Source: a virus
IMG/VR virus record: IMGVR_UViG_3300041999_000047
Location: 1 to 21,759 of that record
Strand: one strand, 5' to 3'
DNA length: 21,759 nucleotides
The notes beneath the pieces are model-generated. The model was not told the DNA's origin. It ran no database searches and was given only the letters and a program-made list of their open reading frames with translations. The number at the start of each line of letters is the position of its first letter. Position 1 is the stretch's first letter. The position numbers and the translations under genes are program-made. Of this stretch, positions 11,556 to 18,016 are shown piece after piece.

Positions 11556-12064
11556 ATCAGCTGCCCCTCCATCGCGCCGGCCATATCGTCCGCACGCTGT
11601 TCGCGGCGCCGCCGGCGCTCATCCGCCATCGCCTGGTCATACTCGTCCAGGTAGCGCTGCGGGATCCGCCCGCGGACCGGTTCCACGCCCTTATGGTCAG
11701 CGAGCCACTGCCGGATTTTCAGGCGCTCCGCATTGGTCCTATCCTCCGACCCTTTGCCGGACGTTTTACGCCTGGGCCTGGATTCCACTGCTTTCTGCCT
11801 GGGCATCGGCTGATCCAATTCCGGGACTTCCGCCAGCTCGTCATCCACGGTTATGGAGCCGTCCAGGATGCGGGCCATCTGCCGGGCATGGACGCTGTTC
11901 GGCGGGGTCTGCTCCGCATAGCGCAAAGCCCTGTCTATGCGTTCCTGCAACTGCATCGCCCGGTCAAAGGACTTAGCCGCGATGGCCGGTAACTGGTCCT
12001 CACCGCCGAGCGAGACAAGCAGGGCATTAGCGGCCGCGACGTCCTGGAGTTTTACCGCCGTCAT
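11552..12064 (-). CDS. Protein with Lsr2-type C-terminal DNA-binding motif
   Basis: A 170-residue protein from ATG 12064, which overlaps the upstream TGA by one base (TGATG). Residues 110-147 (TNAERLKIRQWLADHKGVEP followed by VRGRIPQRYLDEYDQA) match the DNA-binding domain of actinobacterial Lsr2, whose RGR motif enters the minor groove of AT-rich DNA. Residues 1-75 are helical and do not resemble the Lsr2 dimerisation domain; residues 85-108 form a basic linker. A final charged helix (ADERRRRREQRADD) follows. Lsr2 silences AT-rich foreign genes, and phage Lsr2-like proteins are known in actinophages. Here it could modulate host or prophage chromatin. The different N-terminus makes its oligomeric state unclear. 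Confidence 0.72.
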   Translation of the reverse strand: MTAVKLQDVAAANALLVSLGGEDQLPAIAAKSFDRAMQLQERIDRALRYAEQTPPNSVHARQMARILDGSITVDDELAEVPELDQPMPRQKAVESRPRRKTSGKGSEDRTNAERLKIRQWLADHKGVEPVRGRIPQRYLDEYDQAMADERRRRREQRADDMAGAMEGQLI

Positions 12065-12345
12065 CAGGACGCCCTAGAGAACTGGATGACGTTGGACTTA
12101 GGTTTCGGCTGCTGTTTGGGCTGGCCTTTCGGAGTGAAATAAACGATGGTCAGCACCAGTGACCTGGACACCCCATATCGTTCGGCCAGTTCCTTGGTGC
12201 CAATACCTTTCCGGAATTCCCTTTGCATCGCGGCCATGGCACCTGCGGCGAGCTTCCTGGGCCTGCCCACCGAATCGTAAAAACGTTCCTCCGGTTCGTG
12301 CTGCGCCTGGTCGGATATGCGCGGGCTGTGCGGCGTATCAGTCAT
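12064..12345 (-). CDS. HTH protein, resolvase-type DNA-binding domain
   Basis: A 93-residue protein from ATG 12345, with AGGAAAGG upstream on this strand. Residues 27-70 (GRPRKLAAGAMAAM then GIGTKELAERYGVSRSLVLTI) are a resolvase/homeodomain-like HTH: GRPRKL, a first helix, then KELAERYGVSRSLV as the turn and recognition helix. The tail is basic and Pro/Gln-rich (KGQPKQQPKPKS). No catalytic serine-recombinase domain is present, so it is a DNA-binding protein and not a resolvase. It is the first gene of the leftward operon that runs down to 10438. Confidence 0.75.
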   Translation of the reverse strand: MTDTPHSPRISDQAQHEPEERFYDSVGRPRKLAAGAMAAMQREFRKGIGTKELAERYGVSRSLVLTIVYFTPKGQPKQQPKPKSNVIQFSRAS

Positions 12346-12416: not shown

Positions 12417-12442
12417 GTCTACAACGTAACGCATTTATAGAC
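12417..12442. promoter_or_regulatory. Possible degenerate operator pair upstream of the leftward operon
   Basis: GTCTA at 12417-12421 and its complement TAGAC at 12438-12442 face each other, but with 16 bases between them instead of the 7 seen in the perfect operators. The first nine bases, GTCTACAAC, equal those of the parA operator at 13498. The pair lies about 70 bp upstream of the HTH gene start at 12345, where a leftward promoter is expected. Confidence 0.35.
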
Positions 12443-12538: not shown

Positions 12539-12850
12539 CTACTTGGACACGTTGGAGCGTATCCGTTTAGCCACTGCTTTGCGTAGTTCCTGATTCACTG
12601 CAAGTTCCTCCACCAGCGCCCGGAACACTTCCACAATCGGGATCCGCGCCCTGCCCGTCTGCGCGGGCAGGTCCATGTCCTCCGGGTACGCCCACACTTT
12701 CCTATACAGGCCCGGCGACAGGTCCACGGTCATGCGGATGTCCTTGGCCCGCGGGGCCGTCGCGGCGCGTTCCTCGCCGTCGTCCTGGACGTCGTCGGGC
12801 TTCCCTGCCAGGCGGGCGGCGCGGGCGGTCAGGTCTGTTACCTTGCTCAT
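12539..12850 (-). CDS. parB: ParB-type ribbon-helix-helix centromere-binding protein
   Basis: A 103-residue protein whose ATG 12850 overlaps the parA stop (ATGA). Residues 1-35 are a flexible charged N-terminus. Residues about 36-85 fit a ribbon-helix-helix fold: strand KDIRMTVDLS, helix PGLYRKVWAYPEDM, then helix PIVEVFRALVEELA. A last basic helix (LRKAVAKRIRSN) follows. Small RHH proteins encoded downstream of a ParF-sized ParA are the centromere binders of type Ib partition cassettes (ParG-like). Such proteins also repress their own operon. Phased 8-bp repeats upstream of parA are the candidate target. The pair would keep an extrachromosomal prophage in dividing cells. Confidence 0.8.
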   Translation of the reverse strand: MSKVTDLTARAARLAGKPDDVQDDGEERAATAPRAKDIRMTVDLSPGLYRKVWAYPEDMDLPAQTGRARIPIVEVFRALVEELAVNQELRKAVAKRIRSNVSK

Positions 12851-13488
12851 TTGTTCTTCTCCAGTTCCATTGCTGCGGACAGGTAGCCGTACAGGTTCGA
12901 GGGCAGGCGGTCGCCAAAGGACTGCGCGACGGGTTCCCTGCTGGGTATCTCAGCACCCAGCACGGCGCACCCGTGCGATTCCAGCGCCGACCGGATCACT
13001 TTGGTGCTGGACGCGTTCGCTTTCGTCCGGTTCAGCAGGGCACGGACGCGCGGGTCATGTTCGCGGAGCGGGGCGACGTCGTCTATGGCTTTCAGGGTCG
13101 CCGTGACCCGGCGCAGTTCCATCATCGTGGGGGCCAGCGGGATCACCACCGTATCGGCCGCGCGCAGGGCGCTAAAGACGATTCCGGACGTCAGCGGTTC
13201 GCGGCCCTTGTCTGTCGCGCCTGGCGTCCATGGCGGCGTGTCGATGATGACCACGTCATAGCGGCCGTCAAGGATCCCGGCGAGGCGTTTGTGGAGCTGC
13301 GCGGACGGAAGGCCCACGGTGGGGATGGACCAGTCGGCGGTTTCGGCCCAGTCCAGGATGGAGCCTTGCGGGTCGGCGTCCACGATGACCACGCGCCGGC
13401 CTAATTGCTGGTACGCGTGCGCCAGGTAAGCGGCGGATGTTGTTTTGCCAGTTCCGCCTTTCAGGCTGGCTATGGCGATGGTTTCCAT
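12847..13488 (-). CDS. parA: ParA partition ATPase
   Basis: A 213-residue ATPase starting at ATG 13488. It has the deviant Walker A motif KGGTGKTT (residues 10-17) with the signature Lys10, Walker A' DADPQGS (37-43) and Walker B VVIIDTPP (79-86), followed by VVIPLAPTMMELRR. The length is close to ParF (about 206 residues), with no N-terminal HTH, as in type Ib partition systems. It would move plasmid copies by cycling on the nucleoid together with ParB. A perfect 17-bp operator ends nine bases before the start codon and contains a possible -10 (TAGACT), so the message may be nearly leaderless and under phage repressor control (inference). Confidence 0.92.
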   Translation of the reverse strand: METIAIASLKGGTGKTTSAAYLAHAYQQLGRRVVIVDADPQGSILDWAETADWSIPTVGLPSAQLHKRLAGILDGRYDVVIIDTPPWTPGATDKGREPLTSGIVFSALRAADTVVIPLAPTMMELRRVTATLKAIDDVAPLREHDPRVRALLNRTKANASSTKVIRSALESHGCAVLGAEIPSREPVAQSFGDRLPSNLYGYLSAAMELEKNK

Positions 13489-13497
13489 AACCGCAGA

Positions 13498-13514
13498 GTC
13501 TACAACAAGTAGAC
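13498..13514 (-). promoter_or_regulatory. Repressor-type operator in the parA promoter
   Basis: GTCTACAACAAGTAGAC is a GTCTA-N7-TAGAC dyad, the same as sites at 15789 and 15909 beside the repressor and Cro-like genes. On the - strand its inner half reads TAGACT, a TANNNT -10 candidate, eight bases before the parA ATG. Confidence 0.65.
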
Positions 13515-13520
13515 ACGGAA

Positions 13521-13600
13521 TGCAGTAGCCACGCGGGAAAGGAACGCAGTAGCGCAGTGTCCACAGCGTTCTGTGAATAAGTGGATAAGTAGTGCAGTAA
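13521..13600. repeat. Phased 8-bp direct repeats, candidate partition centromere (parS)
   Basis: Divided into octamers from 13521, six of ten contain AGT in the same place: TGCAGTAG 13521, CGCAGTAG 13545, CGCAGTGT 13553, ATAAGTGG 13577, ATAAGTAG 13585, TGCAGTAA 13593. All starts differ by multiples of 8. On the other strand this is ACT(G/T) boxes separated by 4 bases, much like the ACTC boxes bound by ParG. The array lies upstream of parA, the normal centromere place for type Ib cassettes. Confidence 0.6.
13557..13588. other. Cluster of DnaA-box-like sequences
   Basis: Three 9-mers lie within 32 bases. GTGTCCACA (13557-13565) is one base off the actinobacterial box TTGTCCACA. TGTGAATAA (13572-13580) is the complement of TTATTCACA, which fits TTATNCACA. 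AGTGGATAA (13580-13588) is the complement of TTATCCACT, one base off. The stretch to 13632 is AT-rich for this genome. It may be part of a replication origin, but it overlaps the partition repeats and no initiator gene is seen nearby. Confidence 0.35.
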
Positions 13601-13604
13601 ACAC

Positions 13605-13632
13605 TTGCCTTACACGCTTAGCCGTGTATAGT
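13605..13632 (+). promoter_or_regulatory. Rightward promoter with internal operator dyad
   Basis: TTGCCT (13605-13610) and TATAGT (13627-13632) are spaced by 16 bases as -35 and -10. The dyad TACACGCTTAGCCGTGTA (13611-13628) fills the spacer and touches the -10, a classic repression position. It shares the TACACG-N6-CGTGTA frame with 11077-11094. Transcription should begin near 13638-13639, where a GTG in frame with the downstream gene is found. Confidence 0.65.
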
Positions 13633-13676
13633 TAGTCGTGTCAGCAAGGAACACCAGCCACAGACAGGAACCCGAA

Positions 13677-14024
13677 ATGTTCGACCACCTGGAACCCACC
13701 GTCAGCCGCCCCGACGCCATCAAGACCGTAGCCGGCGCGTCCGGCCTCGCCCTCCCGGAAGCATCCGCCCGGTTCACCGCCCTGGCCCGTGACCTGGGCT
13801 ACAGTGCCCCGTTCACCCCGCGCCAAGTGGAAGCCATGGCCGACCTCATCACGGAAGAATCCGCCGATGTCAGCAGCGACAGGTTTACGGTAGAGGCCGA
13901 ATTCGGCGGAACCTTCCGCGTAACCCTTTACAGGAACGGCAGCATGGTAAACCGTCGCCGCGACGTCGCACCGGAACGCGTGGAGGCAGTCAAAGAAACG
14001 CTCATCCTGGAAATGAGGGGCTAA
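13677..14024 (+). CDS. Hypothetical protein
   Basis: A 115-residue protein from ATG 13677, chosen because CAGGAA lies seven bases upstream. An in-frame GTG at 13638 coincides with the predicted transcription start and would add 13 residues as a leaderless start. The first half is helical (ASGLALPEASARFTALARDL then PFTPRQVEAMADLI) and might bind DNA or protein. The second half looks like a small beta sheet (FTVEAEFGGTFRVTLYRNG) with a last helix (VEAVKETLILEMRG). I do not recognise a family. It is the first gene right of the par control region and is driven by an operator-bearing promoter. Confidence 0.72.
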   Translation: MFDHLEPTVSRPDAIKTVAGASGLALPEASARFTALARDLGYSAPFTPRQVEAMADLITEESADVSSDRFTVEAEFGGTFRVTLYRNGSMVNRRRDVAPERVEAVKETLILEMRG

Positions 14025-14100
14025 GACCATGGCCATGTCCAACGCCCAACGCCGTCCTGGAAGCCCTCGCGGAGGCGGACTTCCACAAATGAGCAAGCAG

Positions 14101-14141
14101 GGAAGCCCCCGAACCCATCCCAACGGGTTTCGGGGGCTTCC
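14101..14141 (+). terminator. Hairpin terminator after the 13677 gene
   Basis: GGAAGCCCCCGAACCC pairs with GGGTTTCGGGGGCTTCC around the short loop ATCCCAAC, with one bulged base. The stem is very stable, but the T run is poor. It ends the transcript from 13638 or insulates the next gene, which starts at 14160. Confidence 0.65.
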
Positions 14142-14159
14142 GCCCGTACAGTGAACCCC

Positions 14160-14516
14160 ATGGACTTTGACCTGTATTACGACTGGGACGCCCAACCCGT
14201 CAGCCATCAGCGCTGGATGGAACTATTCCGGCTGGACCGCCGCGTGGCCTACACCGACCTGGGCCAGCAAGGGCGCGTGTCCACCGTCTGGCTGGGCCTA
14301 AACCACGCCTACCCGCCACCATGGGGCGATGACACCCGCCCGCTCATCTACGAAACAATGGTGTTCGGCGGGCCACTCGCGGACGAAATGCTCCGCTACA
14401 CCACACTGGGACAGGCCCGCACCGGCCATCAGTTCATGGTCATGCGCCTGACCTCGCTGGCAGGGGCAACCAAAGCGCGGCAGCTCATCCACAAAGGCGG
14501 GAAGCCCAGGCGCTAA
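14160..14516 (+). CDS. Conserved actinophage hypothetical protein
   Basis: A 118-residue protein from ATG 14160; GTG 14151 is an in-frame alternative and neither has a good ribosome binding site. It contains VSTVWLGLNHAYPP, LIYETMVFGGPLADEMLRYTT and GHQFMVMRL. This pattern of (T)VWLGLxH, then ETMVFGG, then ExxRY(S/T)T, then a closing GH is one I know from many actinobacteriophage proteins of unknown function. It is a small soluble protein. It is placed alone between two terminator-like hairpins, so it must be transcribed by read-through or by a promoter not recognised here. Confidence 0.8.
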   Translation: MDFDLYYDWDAQPVSHQRWMELFRLDRRVAYTDLGQQGRVSTVWLGLNHAYPPPWGDDTRPLIYETMVFGGPLADEMLRYTTLGQARTGHQFMVMRLTSLAGATKARQLIHKGGKPRR

Positions 14517-14526
14517 GGCGGGCCGG

Positions 14527-14550
14527 GGGCCGTCAGGCCCTTGTTCTTTT
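14527..14550 (+). terminator. Rho-independent terminator
   Basis: A short GC stem GGGCC/GGCCC around the loop GTCA (14527-14540) is directly followed by TTGTTCTTTT (14541-14550), giving a typical intrinsic terminator eleven bases after the stop of the 14160 gene. Confidence 0.75.
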
Positions 14551-14589
14551 CCGACACCGGGACGGAAGGGTGGGCGGAAAGGGCAGGGT

Positions 14590-14637
14590 TCAGCCTGATA
14601 AGCGTCCCCCGTGGTGGGGGATGGCTTATCAGGCTGA
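14590..14637. repeat. Large inverted repeat / hairpin
   Basis: Perfect 14-bp arms TCAGCCTGATAAGC (14590-14603) and GCTTATCAGGCTGA (14624-14637). An inner CCCCC/GGGGG helix around GTGGT extends the stem to about 21 bp with one bulge. No T run follows on either strand, so it does not look like an ordinary terminator. Confidence 0.7.
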
Positions 14638-14651
14638 CTTGTCACCGGTCC

Positions 14652-14684
14652 GTATAGGTACGGTATGGATGAGGTATAGGTGAG
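14652..14684 (+). repeat. Three tandem 11-bp repeats (iteron-like)
   Basis: GTATAGGTACG, GTATGGATGAG and GTATAGGTGAG follow one another without gaps. The common form is GTATRGRTNNG. An 11-bp period puts every copy on the same face of the helix, as expected for repeated protein-binding sites such as iterons. Confidence 0.6.
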
Positions 14685-15086
14685 GCTTTCGCCTCTAAAG
14701 TCAGGCCCCGCGGGTTAGGCGGGGCGCGGACGGCTGCCATGGACGCTGGCGCAACGGCTGTTGCACAGTTGGGACTGGTCGCCCTTCGATTCCAGGCCTT
14801 GCGTATCCTGGTGAAATCCCCTGTTCCATGGCTCGACAAAGGGCGCCCTTTGACGGCTCATAACCTCGCATCTCCTGTATTGGACCCTGCGAGGCGGGAC
14901 CCGCGCCGCCTTTCCCGGACGCGCCCGCCAACCCAGCATGTGCCCCTGCATGGCCGGTGACGGGTCCAGCCGTGCAGGCGTTAAAACCTGGCATTCCCGG
15001 CTGGTCAAAAAAAATAACCGGGAACATGAACGTTCGACCGGCTTTGTCCTTGACGCTGGATTGATAAAGTTGTACCCAGCGGTGAG

Positions 15087-15163
15087 GTTCAAACACTACT
15101 TGAACATTCACTCTGAGGCTCCGGAACTGGTAATTCCGGGGCTTCAACATTCAGAACACTACA
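15087..15163 (+). repeat. Shuffled short repeats and a hairpin
   Basis: GTTCAA-N7-TTGAAC (15087-15105) is an inverted repeat. AACACTAC occurs at 15092-15099 and 15156-15163, and AACATTCA at 15103-15110 and 15146-15153, in swapped order. Between them a 12-bp stem with two G-T pairs (GAGGCTCCGGAA with TTCCGGGGCTTC) closes a 7-base loop at 15115-15145. CTGAATGT, the complement of ACATTCAG, recurs near 15203-15211. Confidence 0.5.
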
Positions 15164-15212
15164 GCAGATAAATCGCCCGAATCGACTTTGGCTGGCCGTG
15201 TCGCTGAATGTG

Positions 15213-15248
15213 AAAAGGCCCCCGGTGTGTTAATCCCGGGGGCCTTTC
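15213..15248 (-). terminator. Bidirectional terminator after the repressor gene
   Basis: AAAGGCCCCCGG (15214-15225) pairs with CCGGGGGCCTTT (15236-15247) around a 10-base loop. On the - strand the stem is followed by TTTTC, just past the repressor stop at 15251. It can also end rightward transcripts from the gene-free segment. Confidence 0.85.
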
Positions 15249-15250
15249 CC

Positions 15251-15733
15251 CTATGTCCTGTTCTTTTGCCGGTACGGCGGCGGGCCGGGCGGGGCCGGTG
15301 CCGGTTTGAATATGGGCTTCACGGGCCGGGTTTCTTTGTCCCGGCGTTCCTTGAGCGCCATGATGATGGCCGCGCAGGTCTCCAGGTCATCCTCCGAGAA
15401 GTCCCGCAGGACGCCGGCGAGGAAGTCCACGCGCTGCGCGGCGTCATATTCCTGGGGCATGATCCCGGCGGACGCCAGGGCGGCCTGCTGGATGACGCGC
15501 AAGGGCAGTCCCAGCCCTGTTGATATGCGCTCCAGGGTGTCGGCCCTGGGCATGTGGTTCTGGTGGATGTTGGCCAGCTGCCCGATTTTGGCTTTGGAAC
15601 ATCCGGCGCGCCTGGCGATGTCTGAGTAGCTTTCGCCCGTGCGGTCCTGATGCTGGCGGATGAGGTCCGCCAGGGTTATCAGATGCTGGGTTGGCATGTG
15701 GTCCCTTGGTGTGGTGGTGGTGTCGTCGCTCAT
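15251..15733 (-). CDS. XRE-type HTH repressor, probable immunity repressor
   Basis: A 160-residue protein from ATG 15733 (an in-frame GTG at 15769 is possible). Residues about 20-85 form a Cro/CI-type HTH: TLADLIRQHQDRTGESYSDI, then ARRAGCSKAKIGQLA as turn and recognition helix, then ADTLERISTGLGLPLRVIQQ. Residues 105-130 are a helical segment (FSEDDLETCAAIIMALKER), perhaps for dimerisation, followed by a Pro-rich tail. No LexA-like peptidase motif is seen, so induction would not be by self-cleavage. It is divergent from a Cro-like gene across an operator-filled 170-bp region and alone on its strand, the standard layout of an immunity switch. Its own start lacks a strong ribosome binding site and overlaps a short upstream frame. 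Confidence 0.8.
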   Translation of the reverse strand: MSDDTTTTPRDHMPTQHLITLADLIRQHQDRTGESYSDIARRAGCSKAKIGQLANIHQNHMPRADTLERISTGLGLPLRVIQQAALASAGIMPQEYDAAQRVDFLAGVLRDFSEDDLETCAAIIMALKERRDKETRPVKPIFKPAPAPPGPPPYRQKNRT

Positions 15734-15783
15734 AAGTGTGTTGTTCCCGTCCCCATGGTGGTGCCACACGGTGTAGCACTCAT
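15730..15783 (-). CDS. Possible leaderless 17-residue upstream ORF coupled to the repressor
   Basis: On the - strand an ATG at 15783 lies four bases after TAGACT, a possible -10 inside the operator at 15789-15805. The frame runs 17 codons and its TGA overlaps the repressor ATG (ATGA at 15733-15730). If transcription begins there, the repressor could be translated by coupling to this peptide. The peptide has no recognisable features (it is Thr-rich), so its value would be regulatory. This is speculative. Confidence 0.3.
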   Translation of the reverse strand: MSATPCGTTMGTGTTHL

Positions 15784-15788
15784 TCGGA

Positions 15789-15805
15789 GTCTACAAGTTC
15801 TAGAC
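15789..15805. promoter_or_regulatory. Operator GTCTA-N7-TAGAC next to the repressor gene
   Basis: GTCTACAAGTTCTAGAC is a perfect 5-bp-arm dyad with the same 17-bp size as those at 13498 and 15909. On the repressor strand its last half gives TAGACT, a possible -10, so binding would shut down the repressor's own promoter. Confidence 0.7.
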
Positions 15806-15812
15806 AATCAGC

Positions 15813-15851
15813 GTCTAGCTAACACTGTCCGAACGCCTACCAGCACTAGAC
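15813..15851. promoter_or_regulatory. Two imperfect operators between repressor and Cro-like genes
   Basis: GTCTAGCTAACACTGTC (15813-15829) keeps only one good half. GCCTACCAGCACTAGAC (15835-15851) has one mismatch in the first arm. They lie 24 and 22 bp on from the neighbouring sites, about two helical turns apart, as in cooperative phage operator arrays. Confidence 0.45.
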
Positions 15852-15908
15852 GCGCCGGGAACACCCCGGATGCTGGACGACGTCCCGGCCTGCTGCTAGT
15901 GTCAGGGC

Positions 15909-15925
15909 GTCTAAAGATACTAGAC
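15909..15925 (+). promoter_or_regulatory. Operator GTCTA-N7-TAGAC before the Cro-like gene
   Basis: GTCTAAAGATACTAGAC is a perfect dyad ending 22 bases before the GTG of the Cro-like gene and eight bases before its ribosome binding site. Binding here would block the rightward early promoter. I do not see convincing -35 and -10 elements. Confidence 0.7.
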
Positions 15926-15947
15926 GCCGGAACAGGGAGGTTTGGAC

Positions 15948-16202
15948 GTGGCGGACGTAAACGTCTACATCAGGGCCATACGCAGGACGGACACGGAACC
16001 CACGGAACTGGACAAAGCCATGACCGCCGCCGGCATCAGCGCCAGGTGGCTGGGCGGCGCGGCGGGCGGGATAAACCACCAGCACATCCGCAACGTCGCG
16101 GCGGGGCGCGGCGGCATCGAACGCCGCAAGGCTGACGCCATCGCCAAGGTCCTGGGCGTGCCCGTGTCGAAACTCTTCTCTGCGGACGGGACGGCGGCCT
16201 GA
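15948..16202 (+). CDS. Cro-like HTH protein
   Basis: An 84-residue protein from GTG 15948, chosen because AGGGAGG (15934-15940) lies seven bases upstream; the in-frame TTG at 15942 is too close to it. The middle (LDKAMTAAGISARWLGG, then INHQHIRNVAAGRGGIERRK) and the end ADAIAKVLGVPVSKLF follow the XRE/Cro pattern of helix, turn and closing 'a.aLgv....lF'. It is the first gene of the rightward early operon, divergent from the repressor. A Cro-type antagonist or an early regulator is the natural reading. Its TGA overlaps the exonuclease start by one base. Confidence 0.78.
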   Translation: MADVNVYIRAIRRTDTEPTELDKAMTAAGISARWLGGAAGGINHQHIRNVAAGRGGIERRKADAIAKVLGVPVSKLFSADGTAA

Positions 16203-17221
16203 TGGACGCGCCTGGCGGGTTCGGCGGATCCCTGATCCTCGCCGCCAAGGATTACCGGCGCGACAGGGTCCGCTGGCTGGCGGCGCGCAGGTCCGGACTG
16301 GGCGCATCCGACACCGCCGCCGTCCTGGGCCTGAACCCGTACCGGACCGGCCTGGACGTCTGGCTGGACAAGACAGCCAAAGGGGAACCCGCGGAGGAAG
16401 GCAGCGACGCCACGGAAGCCGGGCAGCGCCTGGAGTCCACCGTGGCGCGCTGGACCGTCAGCAAATACCCGCACCTGGGCAAGCTGGTGTCCACGCCCGG
16501 ACTGCTGCGGCACCCGGAATTCCACTACCTGCTCGCCACCCCGGATTTCGGGCTGGCCCCGCGAGGACGCGCCGGCGCGCAGGTGTCGGCGCTGCTGGAA
16601 GTCAAAACCACATCCGTCAGGTCCTACAGGCGGCACTGGACGGACGGGAACCCGCCCGCCATGGTCCAGGTCCAGGTCCAGCAGCAACTGGCCGTAACCG
16701 GACACGACATGGCCTGGGTGACGTGTTTCGTCGGCGGCGACGGCGGCCCGGGCAGGCTCATGGAACCCGTCCGCATCGACAGGAGTCCGGAGGTCATCGG
16801 GCAGATTATCGGCTACGCCGGGGCCTGGTGGATGCACCACATCATCGAGGGCGTCCGTCCCGAACCCGTGTTCCAGGACGCGGACAAGCTCGCGGCCCTG
16901 TTCCCCGCCGATGAAGCGCTGGAACCCGTCACCGCCACCCCGCACCTGGACGCACAGCTCGCCGCCGTCGCGGAAGCCCGCGCCAACATCAAAATCTGGG
17001 AAACCGCCGAGGCGCGCGCCAAATTCGCCATCGAAACCGCCCTCAAAGGCAGGACGGCCATCGTGTCCGCATCCGGGGACATCCTGGCCACCTGGAAGCC
17101 GCAGACCGTCCGCCGGCTGAACCAGCGCAAACTGGCCGCCGACCACCCCGAACTGCTGGAGAAGTACAAGGAACCCGTTACGGGCCGCGGTGCCCTGCGA
17201 ATCACTACCCTGGAGGACTGA
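16202..17221 (+). CDS. YqaJ-type recombination exonuclease
   Basis: A 339-residue nuclease of the lambda-exonuclease/YqaJ branch of the PD-(D/E)XK superfamily. Motifs in order: RRSGLGASDTAAVLGLNPY (residues 29-47, with Ser36-Asp37), G-x-x-LE at 74-78, ATPD with Asp115, the core LLEVKTT with Glu133 and Lys135, and a Gln-rich helix VQVQVQQQLAVTG at 155-167. It would degrade the 5' strand of duplex ends to give 3' single strands for the adjacent RecT. The C-terminal 100 residues are a charged helical region with the common ending ALRITTLED. It abuts the recT start without a gap. Length is normal for the family. Confidence 0.92.
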   Translation: MDAPGGFGGSLILAAKDYRRDRVRWLAARRSGLGASDTAAVLGLNPYRTGLDVWLDKTAKGEPAEEGSDATEAGQRLESTVARWTVSKYPHLGKLVSTPGLLRHPEFHYLLATPDFGLAPRGRAGAQVSALLEVKTTSVRSYRRHWTDGNPPAMVQVQVQQQLAVTGHDMAWVTCFVGGDGGPGRLMEPVRIDRSPEVIGQIIGYAGAWWMHHIIEGVRPEPVFQDADKLAALFPADEALEPVTATPHLDAQLAAVAEARANIKIWETAEARAKFAIETALKGRTAIVSASGDILATWKPQTVRRLNQRKLAADHPELLEKYKEPVTGRGALRITTLED

Positions 17222-18016
17222 ATGACCGAACAGCAGCAGGACCCCGGGCAGGACCTCGCGCGGGCCATCGGGGACGCGCAGGCGCAGCAGGGCCGCGCCA
17301 CGGCGGTGGACCTGGTCGAATCCATGGCCGGACAGTTCGCCCGCACCCTGCCCAAAGACTTCGCCGTGGAAAAGTTCGTCCGCGACGCCATCACGGAGCT
17401 ACGCCAGACCCCGGAACTGCAAATGTGTACGCCGGACAGTCTCCTGGGCGCTTTCATGACCGCCGCCCGGCTGGGCCTGGAAGTCGGCGGACTGCTGGGA
17501 GAGTTCTACCTCACCCCGCGCAGCGTCAAAAACAGGTCCACCGGCCAGCAGGAAAAACAGGTAGTGCCCATCATCGGATACAAGGGCCTCCTGGAACTGG
17601 CCCGCCGCTCCGGGCGGGTCGGGGCCGTCGGCGCGGAACTGATCCGCGAGGGCGACACGTTCCGGCGCGGCTACGATTCCACCCGCGGCGGCAAGTTCAC
17701 CCAATGGGAACCACTGGACTATGAGGACAGGCGCGAGGTCATCGGCGTGCTGGCCTGGGCGGAAGTCGGCTCCGGTGTTCAGGACAGGTTCCTGCCCATT
17801 TCCGCGGTAATGGACCGTAAGGCGCGTGGCGCGGCAGGGGACAGGGGACCCTGGGCCACGGACCGCGACGCCATGATCCGCAAAACGGGTTTCCGTGCCC
17901 TGGTCACCGAACTGCCGCAGTCCACGGCGCTGGCACTGGCCAGGCAGGTGGACGAACAGGTCCAGACGTACACGCCCGGCGGCGTGGATCCGGCCACGGG
18001 CGAGCTGACGCCATGA
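17222..18016 (+). CDS. recT: RecT single-strand annealing protein
   Basis: A 264-residue protein starting directly after the exonuclease stop, with GGAGG at 17213-17217. It carries the RecT family core: FVRDAITELRQTPELQMC, then SLLGAFMTAARLGLEVG, LGEFYLTPR, VPIIGYKGLLELARRSG, REGDTF, and the late DRDAMIRKTGFRALVTELPQS (each quoted in part). It coats single-stranded DNA made by the exonuclease and anneals it to complementary strands. The pair forms a complete phage recombination module. Its stop overlaps the methyltransferase start by ATGA, so exonuclease, RecT and methyltransferase genes are translated as one coupled unit. Confidence 0.93.
   Translation: MTEQQQDPGQDLARAIGDAQAQQGRATAVDLVESMAGQFARTLPKDFAVEKFVRDAITELRQTPELQMCTPDSLLGAFMTAARLGLEVGGLLGEFYLTPRSVKNRSTGQQEKQVVPIIGYKGLLELARRSGRVGAVGAELIREGDTFRRGYDSTRGGKFTQWEPLDYEDRREVIGVLAWAEVGSGVQDRFLPISAVMDRKARGAAGDRGPWATDRDAMIRKTGFRALVTELPQSTALALARQVDEQVQTYTPGGVDPATGELTP

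Follow-up and report, generated by a model that had tools for sequence, protein, structure and literature searches.

The window analysed here is a 21,759-nucleotide stretch of viral DNA (positions 1 to 21,759 of IMG/VR record IMGVR_UViG_3300041999_000047), and our subject is a 17-bp palindrome, GTCTA-N7-TAGAC, that lies before the partition gene parA, before the immunity repressor gene and before the divergent early operon of this phage. Comparison with related phages gives good support to the view that this palindrome is the immunity operator of a clade of Arthrobacter phages. One copy of it coincides with the presumed -10 element of the parA promoter, and we consider it probable that in the lineage of the window the immunity repressor, most likely together with ParB, holds parAB expression low alongside that of its own gene. 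We put at about even the chances of a wider proposal, namely that the partition operon has been recruited into the immunity regulon. One dimer site would then serve the repressor gene and parAB alike as operator and -10 element, the two would be co-expressed and coupled to copy number, and the parA promoter, given the ParB iteron that overlaps the site, would be a junction of two systems. Little is known of how the dose of partition proteins is set in plasmid-like prophages, and the architecture of this parA promoter yields a direct, testable prediction.

Operator sites in the window and in a longer contig

A motif scan of the window returned perfect copies of GTCTA-N7-TAGAC at 13498, 15789 and 15909, the same three places given in a preliminary description of this DNA. 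That description also listed imperfect copies at 15813 and 15835. The second of these departs from the motif by a single mismatch, while the first is a half-site only, in which GTCTA is present and the right arm, CTGTC, agrees with TAGAC at 2 of 5 positions. The sites are as follows.

13498-13514, minus strand: O_parA, a perfect operator that ends 9 nt before the parA ATG
15789-15805, minus strand: O_L, a perfect operator at the repressor promoter
15813-15817, plus strand: conserved half-site GTCTA beside O_L, kept as a half-site in relatives
15835-15851, plus strand: weak middle operator with one mismatch, conserved in the relative G003 and matched by a one-mismatch copy at this place in several isolates
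15909-15925, plus strand: O_R, a perfect operator before the early operon, which encodes a helix-turn-helix (HTH) protein, RecE and RecT

Where three perfect copies are seen in the window, a first-order Markov model (Markov-1) predicts 0.0016. A longer contig, IMGVR_UViG_3300041406_000077 (38,327 bp; called G002), contains the window at 100% identity and has six perfect copies where the Markov-1 model expects 0.0028. Given that the ends of G002 have 481 bp in common at 96.7%, this contig is nearly a complete genome. Beyond the end of the window it carries two more operators at right-arm operons, at window-equivalent positions 21900 and 23434, and its sixth perfect copy is found near the contig end, so the motif is not confined to the three places originally reported. 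When spacings of 0 to 24 between the GTCTA and TAGAC arms were compared, recurrence was seen at spacing 7 only, and a reversed control pattern gave 0 matches in the window genome and in 19 phage isolates.

A differently spaced pair of arms, GTCTA-N16-TAGAC, occurs at 12417-12442 before a leftward HTH gene (12064-12345). Its half-sites are 21 bp apart, and it is kept in G003.

The operator in isolated Arthrobacter phages

Relatives of the window repressor were found in 37 phage records, all of them from Arthrobacter phages, in genera that include Galaxyvirus, Coralvirus, Andrewvirus and Kuleanavirus; two of the phages, Renna12 and Jamun, are assigned to cluster AS. The isolates compared here are 19 records of cluster-AS-type Arthrobacter phages. 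Perfect copies of GTCTA-N7-TAGAC are present in all 19, with four copies in each and a fifth in one phage. The four copies are syntenic: one precedes the repressor gene (O_L), one precedes the divergent HTH gene (O_R) and two lie at right-arm operons, and G002 shares this layout with all 19 isolates. Complete gene tables were read for three isolates. Of their 12 sites, 11 are intergenic by annotation or by its evident correction, the exception lying inside a 31-codon annotated open reading frame (ORF) of Kepler. In Marchesin, the annotation places small ORFs within the immunity region itself.

Because isolates that have an integrase in place of parA carry the motif, it belongs to immunity rather than to partition. 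Likewise, a role as a ParB centromere only was rejected as the sole explanation of the motif, which 19 integrase phages carry. The clade-wide operator offers a ready marker of immunity specificity for cluster AS phages.

Partition genes and the parA promoter

The genes and promoter elements concerned are these.

12847-13488, minus strand: parA, encoding a Walker-type partition ATPase (phrog_164, E=4e-36; Pfam CbiA/AAA_31)
12539-12850, minus strand: small parB-like gene that overlaps the parA stop by 4 bp
13497-13502, minus strand: TAGACT, inferred -10 element of a leaderless parA promoter, consisting of the operator right arm plus one base and lying 8 nt before the ATG
15251-15733, minus strand: immunity repressor gene (HTH_31/XRE type)
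15788-15793, minus strand: TAGACT, inferred -10 element of the repressor promoter, in the same operator register as at parA

The isolates encode an integrase and no ParA, whereas the window lineage has parAB in the integrase locus. Kepler and Abidatro, for example, have a tyrosine integrase (PF00589), and neither a tyrosine nor a serine integrase (PF00589, PF00239) was detected in the near-complete parA-type genomes G002, G003, G005 and G006. Wherever isolate annotation was read, the integrase and repressor genes overlap by 8 bp, which makes the integrase gene readable from the O_L promoter. The window parA gene is 1.8 kb past the repressor gene, and two opposite-strand genes intervene, so that it most likely needs a promoter of its own. 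This metagenomic Arthrobacter-type phage probably persists as a plasmid.

Among the matches listed, the nearest plasmid ParA is about 49% identical and comes from Actinobacteria. The leading groups listed for the window ParA among isolated phages include no Arthrobacter phages, and neither the parB-like protein nor the product of the gene at 13677-14024 has a match among isolated phages. A profile search with the parB-like protein found no family match, its structure model is of low confidence, and it has no similarity to Jeeves gp38, the protein taken as the ParB of Jeeves by its place after parA.

All five parA-type genomes have a TANNNT hexamer that ends some 6-8 nt short of the parA ATG, a finding that favours a leaderless parA mRNA and identifies the right arm of the operator as the presumed -10 element. 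The repressor and parA promoters of the window both carry TTGTAGACTC in the same register. Furthermore, O_parA of the window (GTGTCTACTTGTTGTAGACTCTG) and O_L of the related contig L057 (GTGTCTACAACTTGTAGACTCTG) agree at 20 of 23 bases, and an 18-base pattern, GTGTCTACNNNTTGTAGACTC, occurs in just 4 of 2.9 million viral contigs, three with the parA promoter of the window lineage and one with O_L of L057. A weight matrix trained on other sites gave O_parA a score of 21.9, as compared to 22.6-25.2 at the other five perfect sites (22.6 for O_R) and at most about 8 in random genomes; the training sites were perfect copies only, and the informative part of this result is the ranking among perfect sites.

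The lineage with an operator at parA consists of the window, G002 and G001, which are identical, and G003, which is ~94% identical here. G003 has kept both arms of O_parA; its spacer differs at one position, and two more changes fall just beyond the site. The sites, their positions, their conservation and the overlap of O_parA with the presumed -10 element can be read directly from the sequences.

A model for joint control of the repressor gene and parAB

From this arrangement we infer repressor binding, the direction of control, the plasmid state and the coupling to copy number. A repressor dimer would bind GTCTA-N7-TAGAC at a small regulon comprising its own promoter, the divergent early operon and the right-arm operons. 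In the integrase-bearing relatives, the O_L promoter could drive both the repressor and the integrase. In the window lineage the integrase has given way to parAB, which is too distant for a simple sharing of that operon and would have a leaderless promoter of its own with an O_L-type operator over the -10 element. By occupying O_parA and O_L alike, the repressor would keep both its own gene and parAB low in the prophage through negative feedback, while the early lytic genes would be off. ParA would still be needed in the prophage, and the predicted effect is attenuation, as at the repressor's own gene. A rise in prophage copies would raise the repressor level and thereby lower the ParA made per copy, tying the dose of ParA to that of the repressor and hence to prophage copy number, and induction would free both the repressor and parA promoters. 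Co-repression of parA by ParB, acting at the overlapping 8-bp iterons, is also probable. The parA promoter would thereby illustrate how a phage that trades its integrase for a partition system may regain co-expression with the repressor, namely by giving parA a repressor-type promoter. The literature that we searched, which largely excluded subscription papers, holds no account of this operator or of a repressor-controlled parA promoter.

Iterons at parA and in diverged relatives

The parA promoter region also contains a repeat array.

13496-13599, minus strand: parS-like array with 7 of its 8 YACT words in a single 8-bp phase and with its final in-phase iteron (TACTTGTT) inside O_parA

Several observations weigh against repressor control of parA. 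The last in-phase iteron of the parS-like array overlaps the left arm of the window operator. The operator at parA is confined to one lineage, and the more diverged parA-type relatives G011/L061 (ParA identity 52%), G005/L086 (52%) and G006/L087 (55%) have no N7 operator at parA. A scan with the sigma-70 consensus found no promoter at parA, so the -10 call rests on comparison. Finally, a strong block by the repressor would starve a prophage-plasmid of ParA, and the effect must therefore be partial.

The periodicity signal at lag 8 has p=0.004 in the window and p=0.039 in G003, and it is strong in the arrays of L061, L086 and L087. These three relatives have 8-bp iterons at their parA promoters and iteron arrays after parB; the latter are clearly 8-bp-phased, with TACGT/TACGGG words (6013-6290 in L061, 9326-9540 in L086, and on the minus strand in L087), and are likely to be parS. 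In L061, an immunity operator precedes the homologue of the window gene at 13677-14024. Taken across these genomes, control of parA by the immunity operator looks like a one-lineage trait laid over a group-wide control of the ParB type.

Given these iterons, the site at 13498 might instead serve mainly ParB, as the final 8-bp iteron in a parS array through which parAB is autoregulated, with its palindrome incidental. The 8-bp phasing does extend into the operator, iterons stand immediately before parA in L061, L086 and L087, and RedRock has known 8-bp parS repeats (PMC7157519). Nevertheless, we regard this explanation as unlikely, since the iteron covers only about TACT and accounts neither for GTC nor for the complete TAGAC arm with its exact N7 spacing. 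In addition, the identical palindrome is present in phages without ParAB, and the O_L-like extension TTGTAGACTC differs from the iteron sequence.

A one-mismatch operator, GTCTATAGGTGCTAGGC, with conserved flanks, occurs at 6153-6169 of L087, where it is 163 bp before parA, and at 4889-4905 of L057. It may be part of a conserved RNA rather than an operator.

The repressor and the Cro-like protein

Two further features lie to the right of the operators.

15948-16202, plus strand: Cro-like HTH gene, first of the rightward early operon
16202-18016, plus strand: recE-like and recT-like genes of the early operon

The recognition helix of the repressor, SKAK-GQ-A, is near-invariant over 15 repressors whose overall identity goes down to 48%. 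The structure model of the window repressor has a confident N-terminal HTH domain that is XRE-like and nearest to those of SinR, DdrO and 434 Cro, proteins that bind as dimers. No whole-chain structural match to this model was found at E 0.001, a profile search with the 160-residue protein gave no family match beyond the HTH domain, and the window repressor was not found in the host genomes scanned for it. The Cro-like protein of the window, on the other hand, has 31-43% overall identity to its isolate counterparts, and its HTH is strongly diverged. Conservation of the recognition helix, divergence of the Cro-like protein and the HTH model together point to the repressor as the main protein bound at the operator.

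It is very doubtful, then, that the Cro-like protein is the main binder at parA, shutting down parA and the repressor gene during lytic growth while the repressor hardly uses the site. Its gene adjoins the operators in all relatives, and lambda-type Cro and repressor proteins do use common operators, but its HTH has diverged while the operator arms and the repressor helix have stayed unchanged. That the site at 13498 is a chance match or a non-functional relic is highly improbable: three diverged parA-type relatives manage without it, but against this stand the expectation of 0.0016 perfect copies in the window, the position of the site exactly over the presumed parA -10 element, its retention in G003 and the restriction of the 18-base pattern to this group.

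The preliminary description had proposed one operator shared by partition, immunity and early lytic genes. Its shared immunity operator is well supported, both by synteny in the 19 integrase-bearing isolates and by the near-invariant recognition helix. Its placing of parA under that operator is supported for the window lineage by the promoter anatomy, by conservation in the ~94% identical relative and by the O_L-like pattern unique to the group, and does not extend to G005, G006 and G011.

A possible 17-codon leader ORF (15733-15783, minus strand) starts just after the repressor -10 element and overlaps the repressor start as ATGA. Its frame is not kept in G003.

Comparison with known phage and plasmid systems

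In phage lambda, 17-bp palindromic operators lie over promoters, with strong outer sites and a weaker middle one. The window resembles lambda-type immunity (cI/Cro, OL/OR) in having divergent repressor and Cro-like genes with strong outer and weaker middle sites between them. Unlike in lambda, the operator also marks right-arm operons and, in the window lineage, the partition genes. The window is likewise similar to the type Ib plasmid par operons, which are autorepressed by a small ParB, in that a small parB-like gene follows a short ParA gene and phased 8-bp words, putative ParB iterons, lie at the parA promoter; it differs from them in having an immunity operator on that promoter besides these repeats.

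Cluster A mycobacteriophages are the best-studied group with plasmid-like prophages and the closest to the window phage in lifestyle. The extrachromosomal cluster A parABS prophages RedRock, Alma, LadyBird and Jeeves also have parAB in the place of the integrase at the genome centre, 8-bp direct-repeat parS-like arrays and a non-coding region near parA (PMC7157519); each RedRock parS locus consists of eight 8-bp direct repeats (PMC7157519). However, cluster A partition regions are largely without repressor sites, in contrast to the canonical operator on the presumed parA -10 element of the window. Only Rachaly and Jeeves have repressor sites within or flanking parABS, and regulation of cluster A parABS by the repressor was left as a possibility (PMC7157519). 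In our simple scan of Jeeves, the sole match was a stoperator-like site with one mismatch, about 250 bp upstream of parA. The repressor gene of the window is also much nearer to parA (about 2 kb) than are those of the cluster A parABS prophages.

As with the stoperators of cluster A phages (L5, TipsytheTRex; PMC9283540, PMC6550527), one repressor would serve operators dispersed over the genome, and the window repressor has weak sequence similarity (E 0.0035) to 8bny, an immunity repressor. Stoperators, however, are asymmetric 13-mers that number 20-30 per genome, mostly in one orientation, and cluster A repressors bind such asymmetric sites as monomers (PMC9283540), whereas the operator described here is a palindromic 17-mer with 4-6 copies at promoters. 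Thus, the window system has neither the asymmetric 13-bp sites nor the 20-30 copies by which stoperators are recognized.

Neighbouring genes and a conserved non-coding stretch

The genes at 13677-14024 and 14151-14516 have no family match and travel with parA-type phages. The first 62 residues of the 13677-14024 product are 84-98% identical in relatives. Before this gene, at 13612-13627, parA-type phages have a palindrome, ACACG-N6-CGTGT (ACACGGCTAGCCGTG(T) in L086 and L087). Could it be the operator of some other regulator?

Between the repressor gene and the gene at 14151-14516 lies a non-coding stretch (14610-14890, minus strand) with blocks almost letter-identical to G003 and L061, despite the L061 repressor being only about 56% identical to that of the window. 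A search with this stretch gave no match in phages, plasmids or Rfam, and an Rfam search of 13300-16000 gave nothing above the gathering score. In its predicted fold, 9 pairs are changed on both sides among the three sequences, and the stretch is a candidate for the RNA of a plasmid-type replication origin.

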